From IMG/VR virus record IMGVR_UViG_3300033149_002467, positions 1-41,852 of that record: DNA of 41,852 nt; one strand, given 5' to 3'. The notes beneath the pieces were generated by a model that had not been told where the DNA came from, did no database searches, and saw only the letters and a list, made by a program, of their open reading frames with translations. The position numbers and the translations under genes are program-made. Position 1 is the stretch's first letter. Every line of letters begins with the position of its first letter. Of this stretch, positions 7,738 to 41,852 are shown one piece after another. Source of the DNA: a virus.

Positions 7738-7779
7738 GGGCAGGTGAGATTAAACCGACCTTGTCTTGCCTGCCCTTTA
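7738..7779 (+). terminator. Terminator-like hairpin after the recombination cassette
   Basis: 7738-7749 (GGGCAGGTGAGA) pairs with 7764-7775 (TCTTGCCTGCCC) over 12 bases with two G-U pairs, followed by TTTAT. The U run is short, so it may attenuate rather than end transcription. Confidence 0.55.
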
Positions 7780-7787
7780 TAGGACTT

Positions 7788-8153
7788 ATGAAACAAAGAA
7801 AACTTAAATTTAAAATATGGGATAGTATAGCTAATGTAATGTATGACCCGTTTGAACTTAAAGAAATTATGATTAATAAAAAGGCACCAAATATGGCAAA
7901 GCATTACATCTATTTGCAATTTATTGGATTATTGGACAAGTCAGGCAAAGAGATTTATGAGGGAGATATAATAAAGGCGATTGTAAATGACGAAGAATTT
8001 ATTGGGAGAATAGTTTGGGATTCTGGTTGTTTTAATTGGGTTAAACAAAATGGGGTTGAGTATCAACTTGGAAATTTACAAACAACGGAGATAGAAGTAA
8101 TCGGCAATATTTATGAAAATCCTAATAGGATTTATGAAAACTATACAAGGTAA
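7788..8153 (+). CDS. YopX-family protein
   Basis: The 121-residue product has the YopX pattern: KFKIWDS near the N-terminus, LQFIGLLDKSGKEIYEGDII in the middle, a beta segment GRIVWDSGCF, and IEVIGNIYENP at the end. YopX proteins are common in phages of low-GC hosts; their function is not known. A frame starting at 7761 would begin inside the upstream hairpin, so ATG 7788 is chosen, six bases after AGGA. The 3' end overlaps the thymidylate-synthase-like gene by 20 bases. Confidence 0.8.
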   Translation: MKQRKLKFKIWDSIANVMYDPFELKEIMINKKAPNMAKHYIYLQFIGLLDKSGKEIYEGDIIKAIVNDEEFIGRIVWDSGCFNWVKQNGVEYQLGNLQTTEIEVIGNIYENPNRIYENYTR

Positions 8154-8841
8154 AACATTAGGTGAAACTTGGATAAAACTAGTGGATAAAGTACTAAAAG
8201 ATGGGGAAAAAATCCCAGATGAAAAAAGGGATAGAATTGCTCTTCAATCTGTTGTGCTTAAATCTGAAACTTGTTATATACCTGATGAAATCATAACTAA
8301 ATATGGTAATCAAGAGAACATTAGTCAATTAATTAATATGACTTTTGATAATAAAGAAATGCACGATTTTGATGTAATTCCAAGTTTTAGTGATGGTCAT
8401 AAGAGTTATTTTGCTAGATTACAAGAAAGTAATTTTATAGAATATGCGGTAGAGCGTTTAACATTAATACCGGAAAGTAAGAAAGTAATAATGGTTTATC
8501 CTGAATGGGAGGATTATATAAAAGTGAGAAGGAATCATTATGATGATTATCTTCCTTGTGTTGTAGCGGTACAGCTTAGGATGTTAGAAAATAAAAATGG
8601 AAGTTGGAATATGAATATTGTTTTTTTTGCAAGATCAGCGGATATATTTCAGAAGTTTCACGCTAATATGATAGCAATGGTTATGCTCGCAATAGATGTT
8701 AGCAAAAAGGTATCAAACAATTTAGGTAAGAATATTTATTTAGGTTCTTTAGAGGGAATGATAACAGATGCCCATATTTATGATGAAACATTAAATGAGG
8801 CGAAAGAACTGATAAAAAAGTATGAGCTTGAAGAACATTAA
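8134..8841 (+). CDS. Thymidylate-synthase-like pyrimidine-modifying enzyme
   Basis: The 235-residue product aligns by eye with the catalytic half of thymidylate synthase. C142 in YLPCVVAVQL matches the nucleophile block (APCH...QF). R167, S168 and D170 in ARSADIF match the phosphate-binding RSxD. N178 matches the base-reading Asn of GLPFNIASY. H214 and Y216 in DAHIYDE match the HxY motif. The His after the nucleophile is replaced by Val, and the N-terminal half is divergent. This family methylates or hydroxymethylates dUMP/dCMP at C5 using folate. Keeping Asn rather than Asp at the base-reading site favours a uracil substrate. It overlaps the QueC-like gene by 20 bases. ATG 8134 is preferred to 8113 because the latter adds residues lying deep in YopX. 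Confidence 0.7.
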   Translation: MKTIQGKTLGETWIKLVDKVLKDGEKIPDEKRDRIALQSVVLKSETCYIPDEIITKYGNQENISQLINMTFDNKEMHDFDVIPSFSDGHKSYFARLQESNFIEYAVERLTLIPESKKVIMVYPEWEDYIKVRRNHYDDYLPCVVAVQLRMLENKNGSWNMNIVFFARSADIFQKFHANMIAMVMLAIDVSKKVSNNLGKNIYLGSLEGMITDAHIYDETLNEAKELIKKYELEEH

Positions 8842-9694
8842 AGGAGAAATAAAGTTTGAGGATAAGATAAATGAAGATCCAGTATTATTGAAAACATTAA
8901 ATACTTTTTTAAAGAAAAAGCGTGGTTATGTTATCAATATGCCAAAGAAAGGAAGTGAAGTGGTCGCTTGTATTTCGGGTGGAATGGATAGTGTTGCAAA
9001 TATAGTTATTTTAATGGAGGAATATAAATATAAAGTTTATCCGTTCTTTATTAATAGAAATCAATCAGCTTATAAATATGAAAAGGCTGCAATACTTTAT
9101 TACAATAAATTATTTAAAAAGAAATATCCTAAACGATATAATCAGTTTGTTGAGATTAAAGTTGATACTCCGGGTCAAATATATAAGGATATGTTAAGGA
9201 TTACTAAAAAGGCAATGGATAATACAGAGCTTAGTAGAAATATATCTTATCCAGCTAGAAATCCAATAATGTTTTTAACAGGTATGGAATATGCTTATTC
9301 TTTGTCTGCTAAAAATATTAATGTGAGGGCAATATTTTCAGCTCACGTAGCATCAGATACATCATATCATTGTTCACTTACTTGGACACGACTTACTAAT
9401 GTGATGATGTGTCAAATTACAAATGATTACAATTGGCAATTTATTAATATTCCGACAGAACAAGAATTAGGCAATTTCTTTGATAAGGATATTTTTGTTA
9501 AATATTGTAATAAAAAGGATATTGATTTGACTAAGACAAGAACTTGTGTCAGTAAAAACAAAATCCAATGCGGAGATTGTCCTACGTGTTGGCAAAGGCG
9601 AATAACATATAAAAATTTAGGATTAAAAGACAAGACTAAATATTTATATCCCCTAAGATGTGAATGCCCAAGTTATTATGAAAAAAGAGATTGA
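8822..9694 (+). CDS. QueC-like PP-loop ATPase/synthetase
   Basis: The 290-residue product has a PP-loop (ACISGGMDSVAN, motif at 52-57) and a C-terminal zinc site C242, C250, C253, C256 (TRTC, then CGDCPTCWQRR), the two hallmarks of QueC, which turns 7-carboxy-7-deazaguanine into preQ0 with ATP and ammonia. The substrate region is unlike QueC: the usual GYPDCR block is replaced around SAHVASDTSYHC (about 175-190). An extra 45 residues precede the PP-loop. No queD, queE, folE or TGT-like gene is seen, so the substrate may not be deazaguanine. It is sandwiched by overlaps between the thymidylate-synthase-like and CYTH genes, implying one pathway. Confidence 0.75.
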   Translation: MSLKNIKGEIKFEDKINEDPVLLKTLNTFLKKKRGYVINMPKKGSEVVACISGGMDSVANIVILMEEYKYKVYPFFINRNQSAYKYEKAAILYYNKLFKKKYPKRYNQFVEIKVDTPGQIYKDMLRITKKAMDNTELSRNISYPARNPIMFLTGMEYAYSLSAKNINVRAIFSAHVASDTSYHCSLTWTRLTNVMMCQITNDYNWQFINIPTEQELGNFFDKDIFVKYCNKKDIDLTKTRTCVSKNKIQCGDCPTCWQRRITYKNLGLKDKTKYLYPLRCECPSYYEKRD

Positions 9695-10214
9695 AGTTAA
9701 ATTTAAAGTGAATAATTATCAAAATACTTTAAAAAAGTTAGAAGATATTTTTGGAGAAAGTGGACCAGAGTTTTATGAGAAAACTTATGGATTTTTTACT
9801 CCTGATGATTGGTCTTGGAAAGAAGCTGGAATTTTTCCAAGAATAAAAGAAACAAAAGATAATTTAATCTTTGGTATAAAAATTAGACCAAAAAAACAAG
9901 ATGAGAATTATTTTGAAAGAGATGAATGGGAAATAGAGATTAATGATAAACAAGATAGAATTCATCTGTTAAAAATGTTGGGATATTCTCATATAGTAAT
10001 ATTTGAAAAGTTTAGAAGGAAATGGCAAAAAAATAATTTTTCAATTACTTTAGATAGATTGCCATTTGGTGAATATGTTGAGATTGAAAGTACAAAAGAG
10101 AATATTGAGAAATTAGCAAAAAAATTAGGTTTAAAAGACAGAATTACAAAAGCGTATCTTGGTGTGTGGCAAGATTTGAGAAAAGGAAATGACCCTGAAG
10201 ATGCAATGTTTTAG
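9678..10214 (+). CDS. CYTH-domain phosphohydrolase
   Basis: The 178-residue product carries the CYTH signature. EIEVK at residues 4-8 is the ExExK motif. Basic strand pairs follow (PRIKE, GIKIRPKK), then acidic DEWEIEI, EKFRRKW and LDRLPFGEYVEIES. CYTH tunnel enzymes bind triphosphates with Mg or Mn (thiamine triphosphatase, CyaB adenylate cyclase, RNA triphosphatase). All charged positions I can check are present, so it is probably active. ATG 9678 puts ExExK at the usual N-terminal place; an ATG at 9660 would add six residues. It overlaps the QueC-like stop by 17 bases. Confidence 0.8.
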   Translation: MKKEIEVKFKVNNYQNTLKKLEDIFGESGPEFYEKTYGFFTPDDWSWKEAGIFPRIKETKDNLIFGIKIRPKKQDENYFERDEWEIEINDKQDRIHLLKMLGYSHIVIFEKFRRKWQKNNFSITLDRLPFGEYVEIESTKENIEKLAKKLGLKDRITKAYLGVWQDLRKGNDPEDAMF

Positions 10215-11198: not shown

Positions 11199-11491
<293 letters not shown>

Positions 11492-12154: not shown

Positions 12155-12769
12155 ATGAAAACAAAAACATTTCGTGGAATAAAATTTAATGTTTATACAG
12201 ATACAAAAATAGAAGGCGATTTCATTAAACCAAATGAAGCTGTCTATTTTGAAAACGATGTTGAGATTACGGGTAAATTAGAAGTAAAATACTTGAAAAC
12301 AGAAGGGTCAATCAATGTTCATAAATCATATATTGTAGATAAATGGGAAGAGATTGGCGGGTCTCAAAAGATTGGCTGGTATCAAAAGATTGGCTGGTCT
12401 CAAAAGATTGGTGAGTCTCAAAAGATTGGCTGGTCTCAAAAGATTGGTGAGTCTCAAAAGATTGGTGAGTCTCAAAAGATTGGTGATTATCAAGAGATTG
12501 GTTGGTTTCAAAAGATTGGTGGACATCAAAGGATTGGTGATTATCAAGAGATTGGTGAGTCTCAAAGGATTGGCGGGTCTCTTAAAGCAAAATCATCACG
12601 AGTATCTTTATATTCAACAGTAAAAGGTACTTATGAAGTAGAGGGCAAGGTATTTATAGGAGTGTGTGAATGGCGGGATACCACAGAAGAAGAAGAAACT
12701 TTAACTTGTGGCAAGTTTATTTCCGGGGATATTAAATATGGTAAATTAAAGGAAATCGGGAAAGAATAA
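12155..12769 (+). CDS. Hexapeptide-repeat beta-solenoid-like protein
   Basis: The 204-residue product has a central array of about 14 six-residue units of form S-Q-K-I-G-W/E (residues about 66-142), flanked by an N-terminal beta-rich segment (DFIKPNEAVYFENDVEITGK) and a C-terminal domain with KGTYEVEGKVFIG. The regular Ile-Gly pair every six residues suits a beta-helix with Ile pointing inward. The flanks resemble polymer-forming (bactofilin-like) or tail-spike folds, but I cannot assign a family. The start shares the MKTKTF leader with the gene at 11684. Confidence 0.6.
   Translation: MKTKTFRGIKFNVYTDTKIEGDFIKPNEAVYFENDVEITGKLEVKYLKTEGSINVHKSYIVDKWEEIGGSQKIGWYQKIGWSQKIGESQKIGWSQKIGESQKIGESQKIGDYQEIGWFQKIGGHQRIGDYQEIGESQRIGGSLKAKSSRVSLYSTVKGTYEVEGKVFIGVCEWRDTTEEEETLTCGKFISGDIKYGKLKEIGKE
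12352..12580 (+). repeat. 18-bp tandem repeat array inside a gene
   Basis: The units read approximately CAAAAGATTGG-YKRRTCT and recur every 18 bases about 13 times, with variation mainly at the two codons after Gly. This creates long open shadow frames on both strands. Confidence 0.85.
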
Positions 12770-15248: not shown

Positions 15249-16820
15249 ATGAAGGAATATAAAATACTTGCCATAGGTGAAGAAGCCACAGAAAAGTTAC
15301 AAAGTGGCGCTAATCAAGTTTGCGATATGGTAAAACTTACTCTTGGCCCTTATGGCCAGAATGTAGTAATTGACCAAGCTAGAATACATCGCAAGCCAAG
15401 AATAACCAACGATGGCGTAACCATTGCCCGTTTTATTACTTTAAAAGACGATTTAGAAAATCAAGGAGCGCAAGTTGTTATTCAGGGCGCGCTTAAAACA
15501 AATGAACTCTGTGGCGACGGCACCACTTCCACCATGGTGCTTATTAAAAAGATTTTAGATGAAGTTAAAAATAAGTATGATTTCAATAATAAGTTAGGTG
15601 GTTCAGATAGCGTGGTAAAAGTAAAAAAACAACTAGAAACTGAAGCCAAAGAAGTTATTGAGAAATTAAAAAAACAAGCTAAAGCAGTAAAGACAGATGA
15701 GGATTTAAATGTTATCGCTAAAACCGCGGTAGAAGATGAGGAAATGGGTATGATTATTGCTGATATGATGAGAATTATTGGTAATGATGGGCATATCGTG
15801 GTTGAGGATACCTATGGGGAAAAGATAGAAACTGAGATTGTATCAGGTATGCGATTTGAAGGAAAGTATGCTGAAGACTTTATGATTACTAAACCCGGCC
15901 GGAAAGAAGCAGAGATGAAAGACCCACTTATATTCATAACTAATCAAGAGATAGAAGATGTTGATCAGATAGCTAAAGTAACGATGACTGCCTCACAAGC
16001 TGGAGTAAGGAATATCGTGATATTTTCGCCAAACTTTACTAGGGATGTGCTTTTGAATATGTATAAATCATTATTTTTTAAAGACCCATTCAGGGTGTTG
16101 GCAATAAAAACCCCGAGCTTGCTAAAAGATATGTACCGAGATATTGCTATTTACACTGGCGGCAAATTTTATGACAAGAAAACTTTTAAAGACGATATAA
16201 GGAATTTTATGTTAGAGGATTTTGGCAGAGCAAAGAGTGTAATGGGCAATGGTGTAGAAAATGGCAGCGAAGTATTTATTACCAAAGGTAAGGGTGATAA
16301 AAAAGAAATTGAAAAACAAGTAGCAAAAATTAAAGAACAGATTAAAATAGAACCAGTAGAAGATATTAGAAACCGATTTAAAAGGCGTATTGCTTCTTTA
16401 TCAGGCGGAGTGGGAATAATCAGAATGGGAGCAAGAAGCGATGTAAGCAAGTATTACAGAAAAGATAAGATAGATGACGCTATTTATGCCACCAAAGCTG
16501 CCCTAGAAGAAGGTATTGTTAAAGGTGGGGGATTGGCTTTAAAAGATATTGCGAAAACTCTGCCAAAGGATTACCTCTTAAAAGAAATACTAAAAGCTCC
16601 ATTTGAGCAAATTGTTAATAACTCTGGCGGCCAGTTAACAGAAAAAGATATGGTTACTATATTTGACCCAGCAAAAGTTGTAAGAATTAGTTTAGAAAAC
16701 GCAATAGATGTGGCTTCAACACTTATTACTGCTGGTGGGATTATAGCGAATAAACGAAATGACATTGATGATTTGAGGCATATTTTAAGCGGTACTCAAC
16801 CTCACGAGTTATCTGAATAA
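15249..16820 (+). CDS. groEL: Phage-encoded GroEL chaperonin
   Basis: The 523-residue product aligns along the whole GroEL length (usual about 545). The nucleotide site is intact: TLGPYGQNVV (31-40), NDGVTIAR (54-61) and GDGTT (89-93, with the catalytic Asp). SGGVGIIRMG and the KIDDAIYATKAALEEGIVKGGG block retain the hydrolytic Asp equivalent to D398. The apical domain diverges, and the Gly-Gly-Met tail is absent. Phage GroELs fold capsid or other structural proteins in some large phages. No GroES-like gene is seen, so it may work without one or borrow the host's. Codon choice is richer in G/C than in its neighbours, suggesting acquisition from a host. Confidence 0.95.
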   Translation: MKEYKILAIGEEATEKLQSGANQVCDMVKLTLGPYGQNVVIDQARIHRKPRITNDGVTIARFITLKDDLENQGAQVVIQGALKTNELCGDGTTSTMVLIKKILDEVKNKYDFNNKLGGSDSVVKVKKQLETEAKEVIEKLKKQAKAVKTDEDLNVIAKTAVEDEEMGMIIADMMRIIGNDGHIVVEDTYGEKIETEIVSGMRFEGKYAEDFMITKPGRKEAEMKDPLIFITNQEIEDVDQIAKVTMTASQAGVRNIVIFSPNFTRDVLLNMYKSLFFKDPFRVLAIKTPSLLKDMYRDIAIYTGGKFYDKKTFKDDIRNFMLEDFGRAKSVMGNGVENGSEVFITKGKGDKKEIEKQVAKIKEQIKIEPVEDIRNRFKRRIASLSGGVGIIRMGARSDVSKYYRKDKIDDAIYATKAALEEGIVKGGGLALKDIAKTLPKDYLLKEILKAPFEQIVNNSGGQLTEKDMVTIFDPAKVVRISLENAIDVASTLITAGGIIANKRNDIDDLRHILSGTQPHELSE

Positions 16821-16822
16821 TT

Positions 16823-17113
16823 ATGACAATATTAGAACTCTTATTATATATATTATTAGCTATGGCATTAACATTTTTGGTTTTTACCATAGGACATTGG
16901 TATGGGACAACAAGTGTAGAAGCGGACATTATTTATAAAACTCGGTATGTGGAAAAAACAGATTGTCCTATATGCCAAGAATGTATTGAGAGGGATTGTC
17001 CAATTTATAATTGGGACATAGTAAATCAAGTTGAATTATTAGAAACCAAGTTAGAGATTCAAAAACAAATTTGTGAAACAGAAAAGTCAATTATTAGAAA
17101 ACAATGTAAATGA
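16823..17113 (+). CDS. Membrane-anchored Cys-rich coiled-coil protein
   Basis: The 96-residue product has one membrane helix at the N-terminus (about residues 4-25), then KTDCPICQECIERDCPIY (four cysteines) and a C-terminal coiled coil ending in Cys. The cysteine cluster could bind metal, or form disulfides if outside the cell. The architecture resembles the gene at 10293. Stop overlaps the next ATG by ATGA. Confidence 0.55.
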   Translation: MTILELLLYILLAMALTFLVFTIGHWYGTTSVEADIIYKTRYVEKTDCPICQECIERDCPIYNWDIVNQVELLETKLEIQKQICETEKSIIRKQCK

Positions 17114-17769
17114 AATATAATGTTGTAACAGGTTGGCGGAGAGGAGGCACATCAGCTCTTATGGTATCCCTTAAGCAAGCTGGTTTTCCTATTCTAGGAT
17201 TTAAGTATCCTGTATATTTTAGCCATCCTAAAATCAATGAGAAATATGATGGTGGTATATTAGAGGCAAGGGTATATGAGAGAAATTTAAACCCTACTGG
17301 ATTTTGGGAGTTAGCATCTATTGTTCAAGGCAAAGGACTTCAAAAGAAACATTACGATTTAGGATTTGATAATGATATTGTAAAAGTTCCATTTGGAGTA
17401 TTGCCGCTTTCTAATCCTGATTTAATTAATAAGGTAATTATTATTTTAAGAGAACCTGCAAAAGTTATTGCTAGCCAGTATAAGACGATACCACCAAAGA
17501 AAAGAGAAAAATGGTTAAAAACCGCTAGTCAAGATTTATTACTTAAAGCAGAAACATCTTTGGCTTGGTTGATAAAATACAGAAAAGATTTTGTAATATT
17601 GCATTATAAAGATTTATTAGAAAAGGAAGAAACGGTTTTATCTGATATTGAAATGTTTTTTACCAAATCAAAGTCAGCGATTAAAACAGAATTAGATAGA
17701 GTAAAGCCAATGGAATTAAAAGGAAAAAATTACAAAAGGTTAATTGAATTTTATAAGAATAATATATAA
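17110..17769 (+). CDS. Sulfotransferase-like protein
   Basis: The 219-residue product has the two phosphate-binding sites of PAPS-dependent sulfotransferases. The P-loop-like TGWRRGGTSAL (7-17) binds the 5' phosphosulfate. IILREPAKVIASQY (111-124, with R114 and S122) matches the 3' phosphate site. The fold would transfer sulfate to a sugar, peptide or small molecule. The family is uncommon in small phages; a role in modifying host surface glycans or virion proteins is conceivable. The acceptor cannot be predicted, and the segment between the two sites (about 30-105) is divergent. Confidence 0.7.
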   Translation: MKYNVVTGWRRGGTSALMVSLKQAGFPILGFKYPVYFSHPKINEKYDGGILEARVYERNLNPTGFWELASIVQGKGLQKKHYDLGFDNDIVKVPFGVLPLSNPDLINKVIIILREPAKVIASQYKTIPPKKREKWLKTASQDLLLKAETSLAWLIKYRKDFVILHYKDLLEKEETVLSDIEMFFTKSKSAIKTELDRVKPMELKGKNYKRLIEFYKNNI

Positions 17770-34900: not shown

Positions 34901-34929
34901 ACTATAACAAAAAATTCAATTATTGTCAA
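34901..34929 (-). promoter_or_regulatory. Second minus-strand promoter candidate
   Basis: TTGACA (34929-34924), 17-base spacer, TATAGT (34906-34901) on the minus strand. It points away from the collagen-like gene and towards 34813. Confidence 0.4.
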
Positions 34930-34934
34930 CTTTT

Positions 34935-35669
34935 ATGAACCAAAAAGCCCAAAAACTCATCTTACTAAAAGCTAATACTCCATTAGCTCTTTTACAAATA
35001 CTTGAAGAAATTCAGAAAAACCAAGATCAGAAGTTATTCCAAATTGAAACTAAGATTAATGAGTTAATTCATAGAAAAGAAACCAATCTTTTAAAAGGGA
35101 TAACACAGATTAAAGGAGATAAGGGCGAAAAGGGCGATATAGGGCCAAAAGGCGAGAAAGGGGATAGTATTATTGGCCCACGAGGAGAACGGGGCATACA
35201 GGGCATTCCTGGGCCTGCTGGAGCGACTGGCAAGCAGGGTCCGAGGGGATTTTCAGGCAAGGATGGCAAAGATGGCAAAGATGGCAAGGATGGTCAAGAC
35301 GCTAAAATAGATATTAAAAAACTAAAAAAAGACATAATAACTTCTTTAGAAAAAATGCAAAAACCGCAAATAGAAAGAATTTTAAAACAGATTCGCGCTA
35401 TTCGCAGAATGGGGAGCGTGCAAGTATCTGGTGGTGGTTTTAGAGAAGAACGCAATGTTTGGGGTGAGATTCCTAGCGGGACAATAAATGGCGTAAATGT
35501 TACTTTTACCCTAGCCAATACCCCATCCAGTGGAACTCTTAGATTATATGCAGGAGGTGTAAGATTGTCAGAAACTGAAGACTACACTTTATCAGGAGCA
35601 ATAATAACTATGTTATCAGCCCCAATGACAGGCGAAGTATTACGGGCTGATTACATTAAATCACGATGA
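34935..35669 (+). CDS. Collagen-like tail fibre
   Basis: This 244-residue protein has an N-terminal helix, then about 20 Gly-X-Y triplets (residues about 58-118: GDKGEKGDIGPKGEKGDS, then GPRGERGIQGIPGPAG and GKDGKDGKDGQDA), a coiled coil and a C-terminal beta domain (GEIPSGTINGVNVTFTLANT). Collagen-like stretches trimerise phage fibres. ATG 34935 is used; a TTG at 34923 would add four residues. The stop overlaps the next ATG (ATGA). Confidence 0.85.
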   Translation: MNQKAQKLILLKANTPLALLQILEEIQKNQDQKLFQIETKINELIHRKETNLLKGITQIKGDKGEKGDIGPKGEKGDSIIGPRGERGIQGIPGPAGATGKQGPRGFSGKDGKDGKDGKDGQDAKIDIKKLKKDIITSLEKMQKPQIERILKQIRAIRRMGSVQVSGGGFREERNVWGEIPSGTINGVNVTFTLANTPSSGTLRLYAGGVRLSETEDYTLSGAIITMLSAPMTGEVLRADYIKSR

Positions 35670-41583: not shown

Positions 41584-41852
41584 ATGAATAACAAAACAAA
41601 AATACCAATCATCGCTGCGGGATTTGCAATCAGTTTTATAGCGGGCAATTTGGTTAATAATTCATCTAATCCCCCCGTAGGAGCGTCCGTAGAGCTGCCA
41701 GAAGCCTCTGTGGCAAATGTTTTAAGCAAAAAGGTATCAACCTCCACCATTGACTTTATCGTCTCTTACAAGGGCATTACATCAACATTAAGTTTTTCTT
41801 TTGACGGATACAATTCGTGTAGAAATGGAACTTGGGGAACATCCACAAAAGC
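41584..41852 (+). CDS. Signal-anchored small protein, 5' part (continues at position 1)
   Basis: The first 52 codons, up to 41739, continue in frame at position 2 of the window. The N-terminus has a basic start and a hydrophobic helix (about residues 8-23, PIIAAGFAISFIAGNL), so the protein is secreted or membrane-anchored. A low-complexity linker (NNSSNPPVGASVELPEAS) follows. Family unknown; see also 1-247. Confidence 0.75.
   Translation, partial: MNNKTKIPIIAAGFAISFIAGNLVNNSSNPPVGASVELPEASVANVLSKKVSTSTIDFIVSYKGITSTLSFSFDGYNSCRNGTWGTSTK
41739..41852. repeat. Terminal direct repeat, right copy
   Basis: Identical to 1-114; marks the assembly overlap of a circular molecule. The gap 41547-41583 before this gene holds no feature. 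Confidence 0.95.

Follow-up and report, generated by a model that had tools for sequence, protein, structure and literature searches.

A tailed-phage locus encoding thymidylate-synthase-like, QueC-like and CYTH proteins, with a probable QueC-family ligase whose base pocket is remodelled

Three consecutive, overlapping phage genes encode proteins that resemble a thymidylate synthase (TS), the queuosine-precursor enzyme QueC and a CYTH phosphohydrolase, and this arrangement raises the question of whether the three enzymes serve one pathway or act separately. A sequence-only reading of the locus had favoured the former and proposed a new nucleotide pathway leading to a hypermodified DNA base or a small signalling nucleotide. 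We analysed the whole stretch of DNA (the window), which is one entire virus record, IMGVR_UViG_3300033149_002467, of 41,852 bases. Because an exact 114-base direct repeat is present at both ends of the record (positions 1-114 and 41739-41852), it probably represents a complete tailed-phage genome. The proteins of named phages that best match its terminase (from Aeromonas, Vibrio and Escherichia phages) are 31-35% identical to it; a sister contig, L059, encodes a terminase of 71% identity and a GroEL of 42% identity to those of the phage. A Shine-Dalgarno-like site precedes only 3 of the 38 start codons of the genome; scarcity of such sites is a habit of Bacteroidota, which are thus the likely host group of this phage.

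Table 1. Genes of the locus and their profile matches.
Feature	Coordinates	Strand	Matches and remarks
YopX-family protein	7761..8153	+	Pfam YopX 4.5e-20; upstream neighbour, context, outside the proposed function
Thymidylate-synthase-like protein, 235 aa	8134..8841	+	Pfam PF00303 (Thymidylat_synt) 8.3e-9; TIGR03283 1.1e-14
QueC-family PP-loop protein, 290 aa	8822..9694	+	Pfam QueC 6.8e-13; phrog_1550 1.7e-19; PADLOC QueC 5.3e-13
CYTH / triphosphate tunnel metalloenzyme, 178 aa	9678..10214	+	Pfam CYTH 1.1e-9

The three open reading frames, read again from the sequence, have the coordinates and the overlaps given by the sequence-only reading, namely 20 bases between the TS-like and QueC-like genes and 17 bases between the QueC-like and CYTH genes, and profile searches upheld all three family identities, with Pfam matches that exceed Pfam's cut-offs (Table 1). 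Some starts have alternatives: the TS-like gene could begin at ATG 8113 (giving 242 aa) and the CYTH gene at GTG 9660. For the QueC-like gene, the true start may lie further in, at an ATG near 8939, in which case the overlap with the TS-like gene would vanish; Shine-Dalgarno signals, nearly absent from this genome, give no choice between the two starts. The three genes are probably co-transcribed. Overlaps are found in 12 of 37 neighbouring gene pairs of the phage, 9 of them of at least 10 bases, and the upstream YopX gene itself runs 20 bases into the TS-like gene; since overlapping is common genome-wide and extends to this neighbour, the overlaps are weak evidence for a shared product and do not single out the trio.

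The best model for the TS-like protein is TIGR03283, the methanogen-type thymidylate synthase, which aligns over residues 10-229 with profile positions 2-200 of 201, at a score of 54 bits versus a cut-off of 174.55. Against a profile built from bacterial members of this short clade together with a phage contig, L046, that also encodes such a protein, the TS-like protein scored 50 bits, compared with 28 bits against a canonical ThyA profile built from three sequences. In bacteria, the clade had one clear member (L045) among 300 genomes from one phylum, and ten strong members among 297 genomes from a second. Like the methanogen-type enzymes and their bacterial relatives, the phage protein matches the profile over its full length, is short, lacks the canonical ThyA C-terminal part and, in our alignments, keeps Cys142, Arg167-Ser-Ala-Asp170 (RSxD), Asn178 and the HxY motif of His214 and Tyr216 (numbered from ATG 8134), so that the nucleophilic Cys and the phosphate-binding RSxD are retained as had been claimed. 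It differs from them in its low TIGR03283 score, in its identity of about 24% to L045 and in carrying Lys-Lys in place of Arg126/Arg127, two residues that extend across the dimer interface in ThyA. The AlphaFold model of the protein was poor (pLDDT 57) and gave no significant fold match, and its TS fold therefore rests on sequence profiles, which place it in the short 'methanogen-type' TS clade.

Phages also encode TS-superfamily enzymes that act as dCMP or dUMP hydroxymethylases (T4 gp42, SPO1 gp29). Asn178 of the TS-like protein aligns, without gaps, with the dUMP-recognising Asn of ThyA (Asn177), whereas T4 gp42 and phage GMA2 carry Asp at this position (SPO1 gp29 was left out of the alignment). 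We therefore rejected dCMP hydroxymethylase as its identity; the residue points to uracil, not cytosine, as the base of the nucleotide acted upon. Activity as a TS cannot be taken for granted, because the Arg pair is replaced by Lys-Lys and the general-acid Glu has no placed counterpart.

The QueC-like protein yielded a better model (pLDDT 68), the best structural matches of which were viral QueC proteins; in the PDB it matched other PP-loop ATP pyrophosphatases. It shares with QueC (PF06508 cluster 1 of PMC13329287) the PP-loop SGGMDS, the Gln and Glu of YxQxHxxE, the PxRN motif (YPARN), the stacking Tyr182 and all four zinc-binding Cys. Unlike QueC, it carries Arg in place of Tyr35, Val in place of Tyr189 (the Tyr beside the first zinc Cys) and Y-HC for YPDC, in which the Tyr is kept and the Asp is gone, and it bears an N-terminal extension of about 40 residues. 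The motif alignments thus bear out both halves of the earlier description, a preserved four-Cys zinc site and a changed GYPDCR block. In the 24 viral QueC relatives that we fetched for comparison, Tyr35, the Asp of YPDC and Tyr189 are mostly kept, and none of the relatives compared shares the altered motif, so that decay or drift could also account for the changes. E. coli QueC is reported to require Tyr35, Arg99, Tyr131 and Tyr189 (PMC13329287); according to PMC13279940, the YPDC Asp reads the Watson-Crick edge of the 7-deazaguanine base. When genomes were searched with the phage protein, the top match (L083) proved to be an ordinary QueC. In an Agrobacterium plasmid cluster (L004:1894-5057), possibly a defence cluster, TIR-domain proteins and a DNA lyase are encoded together with a QueC-like protein whose YPDC motif is also changed.

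Would the phage have use for a queuosine-type ligase? A phmmer search with phage preQ0 proteins (FolE, QueD, QueE, QueF and TGT) against all window ORFs of at least 50 aa gave no hit with E below 0.04, whereas the QueC-like protein itself was detected at 7e-6. This agrees with the sequence-only reading, in which folE, queD, queE and TGT were not recognisable, and we rejected a canonical queuosine operon, as no other preQ0 gene is present in the genome. Nor did we recognise in the phage genome a kinase, glycosyltransferase, TGT/DpdA or dCMP deaminase of the kind that marks base hypermodification. Since the guanine-recognising Asp and two essential Tyr are lost and no other preQ0 gene accompanies the protein, it is probably a QueC-family ATP-dependent ligase with another substrate and a remodelled base pocket, and probably no longer makes preQ0, the precursor of queuosine. 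Such a ligase with a rebuilt pocket would be the most unusual part of the locus.

The CYTH protein looks intact, as had been proposed, and carries both ExExK (EIEVK, near the N-terminus) and ExE (EWE, after RD). These motifs are shared with SaTTM-like archaeal and bacterial CYTH triphosphatases, and among proteins of solved structure the best match is the triphosphatase SaTTM Saci_0718, although the similarity is weak (3.3e-5 over about 90 residues). By eye, in the alignment to this relative, a Phe lies close to the site at which thiamine triphosphatases carry an aromatic residue. The cyaB model TIGR00318 also matched (9.3e-10), but at 38.6 bits versus a cut-off of 57.95. Class IV adenylyl cyclases (CyaB) are marked by HFxxxxExExK at the N-terminus (PMC8233210), whereas the phage protein begins with MKKEIEVKF, or VNAQVIMKKEIEVKF, and lacks this motif. 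Because the cyclase signature is absent, the protein is likely to be a triphosphatase more so than a cyclase; a role as cAMP cyclase is disfavoured, and a small signalling nucleotide, in the form of a cyclic nucleotide made by this protein, is unlikely.

The explanation that we consider best, at roughly even odds (about 0.5), is that the early region of a complete tailed-phage genome contains three real, intact-looking genes for accessory enzymes. The TS-like protein would most likely transfer a one-carbon unit onto the C5 atom of dUMP, yielding dTMP or 5-hydroxymethyl-dUMP. The QueC-like protein, not a preQ0 synthase, would most likely use ATP to adenylate a carboxylate other than that of 7-carboxy-7-deazaguanine and join it to an amine. 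The CYTH protein would most likely hydrolyse a triphosphate. Put most simply, the three would be accessory genes for the nucleotide pool, with no product necessarily in common.

If the three enzymes instead formed one new pathway, the TS-like protein would supply a C5-modified dUMP, the QueC-like protein would activate or amidate it and the CYTH protein would act on a phosphate intermediate, with the product ending up in phage DNA or as a small molecule. The tight gene order with its overlaps, the dUMP-type TS and a QueC pocket that has shifted away from guanine recognition while ATP site, zinc site and stacking Tyr stay in place all fit such a scheme, which we nevertheless hold to be doubtful. 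The general occurrence of overlaps in this genome, the absence of recognisable hypermodification partners and the distribution of the genes argue against it. The trio, predicted to recur in other phages, was not found in IMG/VR, among named phages and plasmids, or in about 800 genomes drawn from two phyla (Bacteroidota not among them), a search that also took in terminase relatives, with metagenome contigs lying outside it. The IMG/VR scans used single-protein and alignment queries for TS and QueC, which need short conserved stretches and may miss near records; a TS-QueC adjacency pattern gave six matches there, and on reading their ORFs none (0/6) proved to be a pair of these genes. The sister contig L059 stops short of the trio region. 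Short-clade TS relatives, both the bacterial loci and phage contig L046, stand without QueC or CYTH, the bacterial loci having been read with flanks of about 1-1.5 kb either side, which makes the absence of QueC there a local one. Among the papers of the library searched, none was found that names QueC together with thymidylate-synthase-like or CYTH proteins. With the trio not seen elsewhere, TS relatives standing without QueC or CYTH and no partner genes recognised, the proposal of a new pathway to a hypermodified base or signal is left unsupported. Its more specific form would start from a short-clade TS producing a uracil nucleotide substituted at C5; a ligase derived from QueC and devoid of guanine recognition would work on this pyrimidine, and the CYTH protein would process its phosphate form, to give a new modified DNA base or small nucleotide. 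This form is in our estimate unlikely.

Counter-defence, in which the QueC-like protein would mimic or block host Cap9 or QatC, or modify a protein N-terminus, while the CYTH protein removed a phosphorylated signal, strikes us as quite improbable. It draws on the match to the PADLOC QueC model (Table 1) and on Cap9 of type IV CBASS, the only solved structure retrieved by a single-sequence search with the QueC-like protein (E 0.011). Cap9 resembles the phage protein in QueC fold, ATP site and Q(x)5E spacing, the last of these being common also to the QueC-like gene that lies with TIR and DNA-lyase genes on the Agrobacterium plasmid; but it keeps YxDC, which is changed in the phage, where we saw no CBASS partners. 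Likewise, for a Cap9-like reaction on an N-terminal glycine, no plausible partner protein with an MGG, MGT or MGS N-terminus was seen among those window ORFs of at least 50 aa that have a Shine-Dalgarno-like site, a feature of only 3 of 38 starts. QatC shares the QueC fold and ATP site and, like the phage protein, is without the Tyr/Asp recognition pair; it differs in having its own motifs and a length of about 400 aa, and no Qat partners were seen at the phage locus. QatC failed to restore queuosine (PMC13329287). That the protein is an ordinary phage QueC using host-made CDG for DNA or tRNA modification is very unlikely: fold and family agree and phage QueC is common, but Tyr35, the Asp of YPDC and Tyr189, mostly kept by the 24 viral relatives fetched, are lost, and the window holds no TGT/DpdA, QueD, QueE or FolE.

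The QueC family has lately been found to extend beyond preQ0, to protein deazaguanylation in type IV CBASS and, probably, a similar activity in Qat. The phage protein, a QueC relative that has the ATP and zinc sites but is without guanine recognition and is encoded beside a pyrimidine enzyme, offers a concrete and inexpensive test case for a QueC-family ligase acting on something other than a deazaguanine. Should it be true that the three enzymes cooperate, they would constitute a new route to modified nucleotides.

Other parts of the phage genome also bear features of note. Downstream of the locus lie two tandem arrays, one with a 12-base unit in about 22 copies (window 11216-11487), of which one frame reads Gly-Ser repeats, and one with an 18-base unit (12351-12581) that encodes a repeated QKIG[WE]S peptide within a 204-aa protein (ORF 12155-12769). 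The GroEL homologue is encoded at 15249-16820 (phrog chaperonin 3.5e-96), and a weak sulfotransferase-like match (0.0024) at 17110-17769 adjoins the terminase genes. A collagen-like repeat protein (34923-35669; Pfam Collagen 7.9e-9) precedes the tail-fibre genes.
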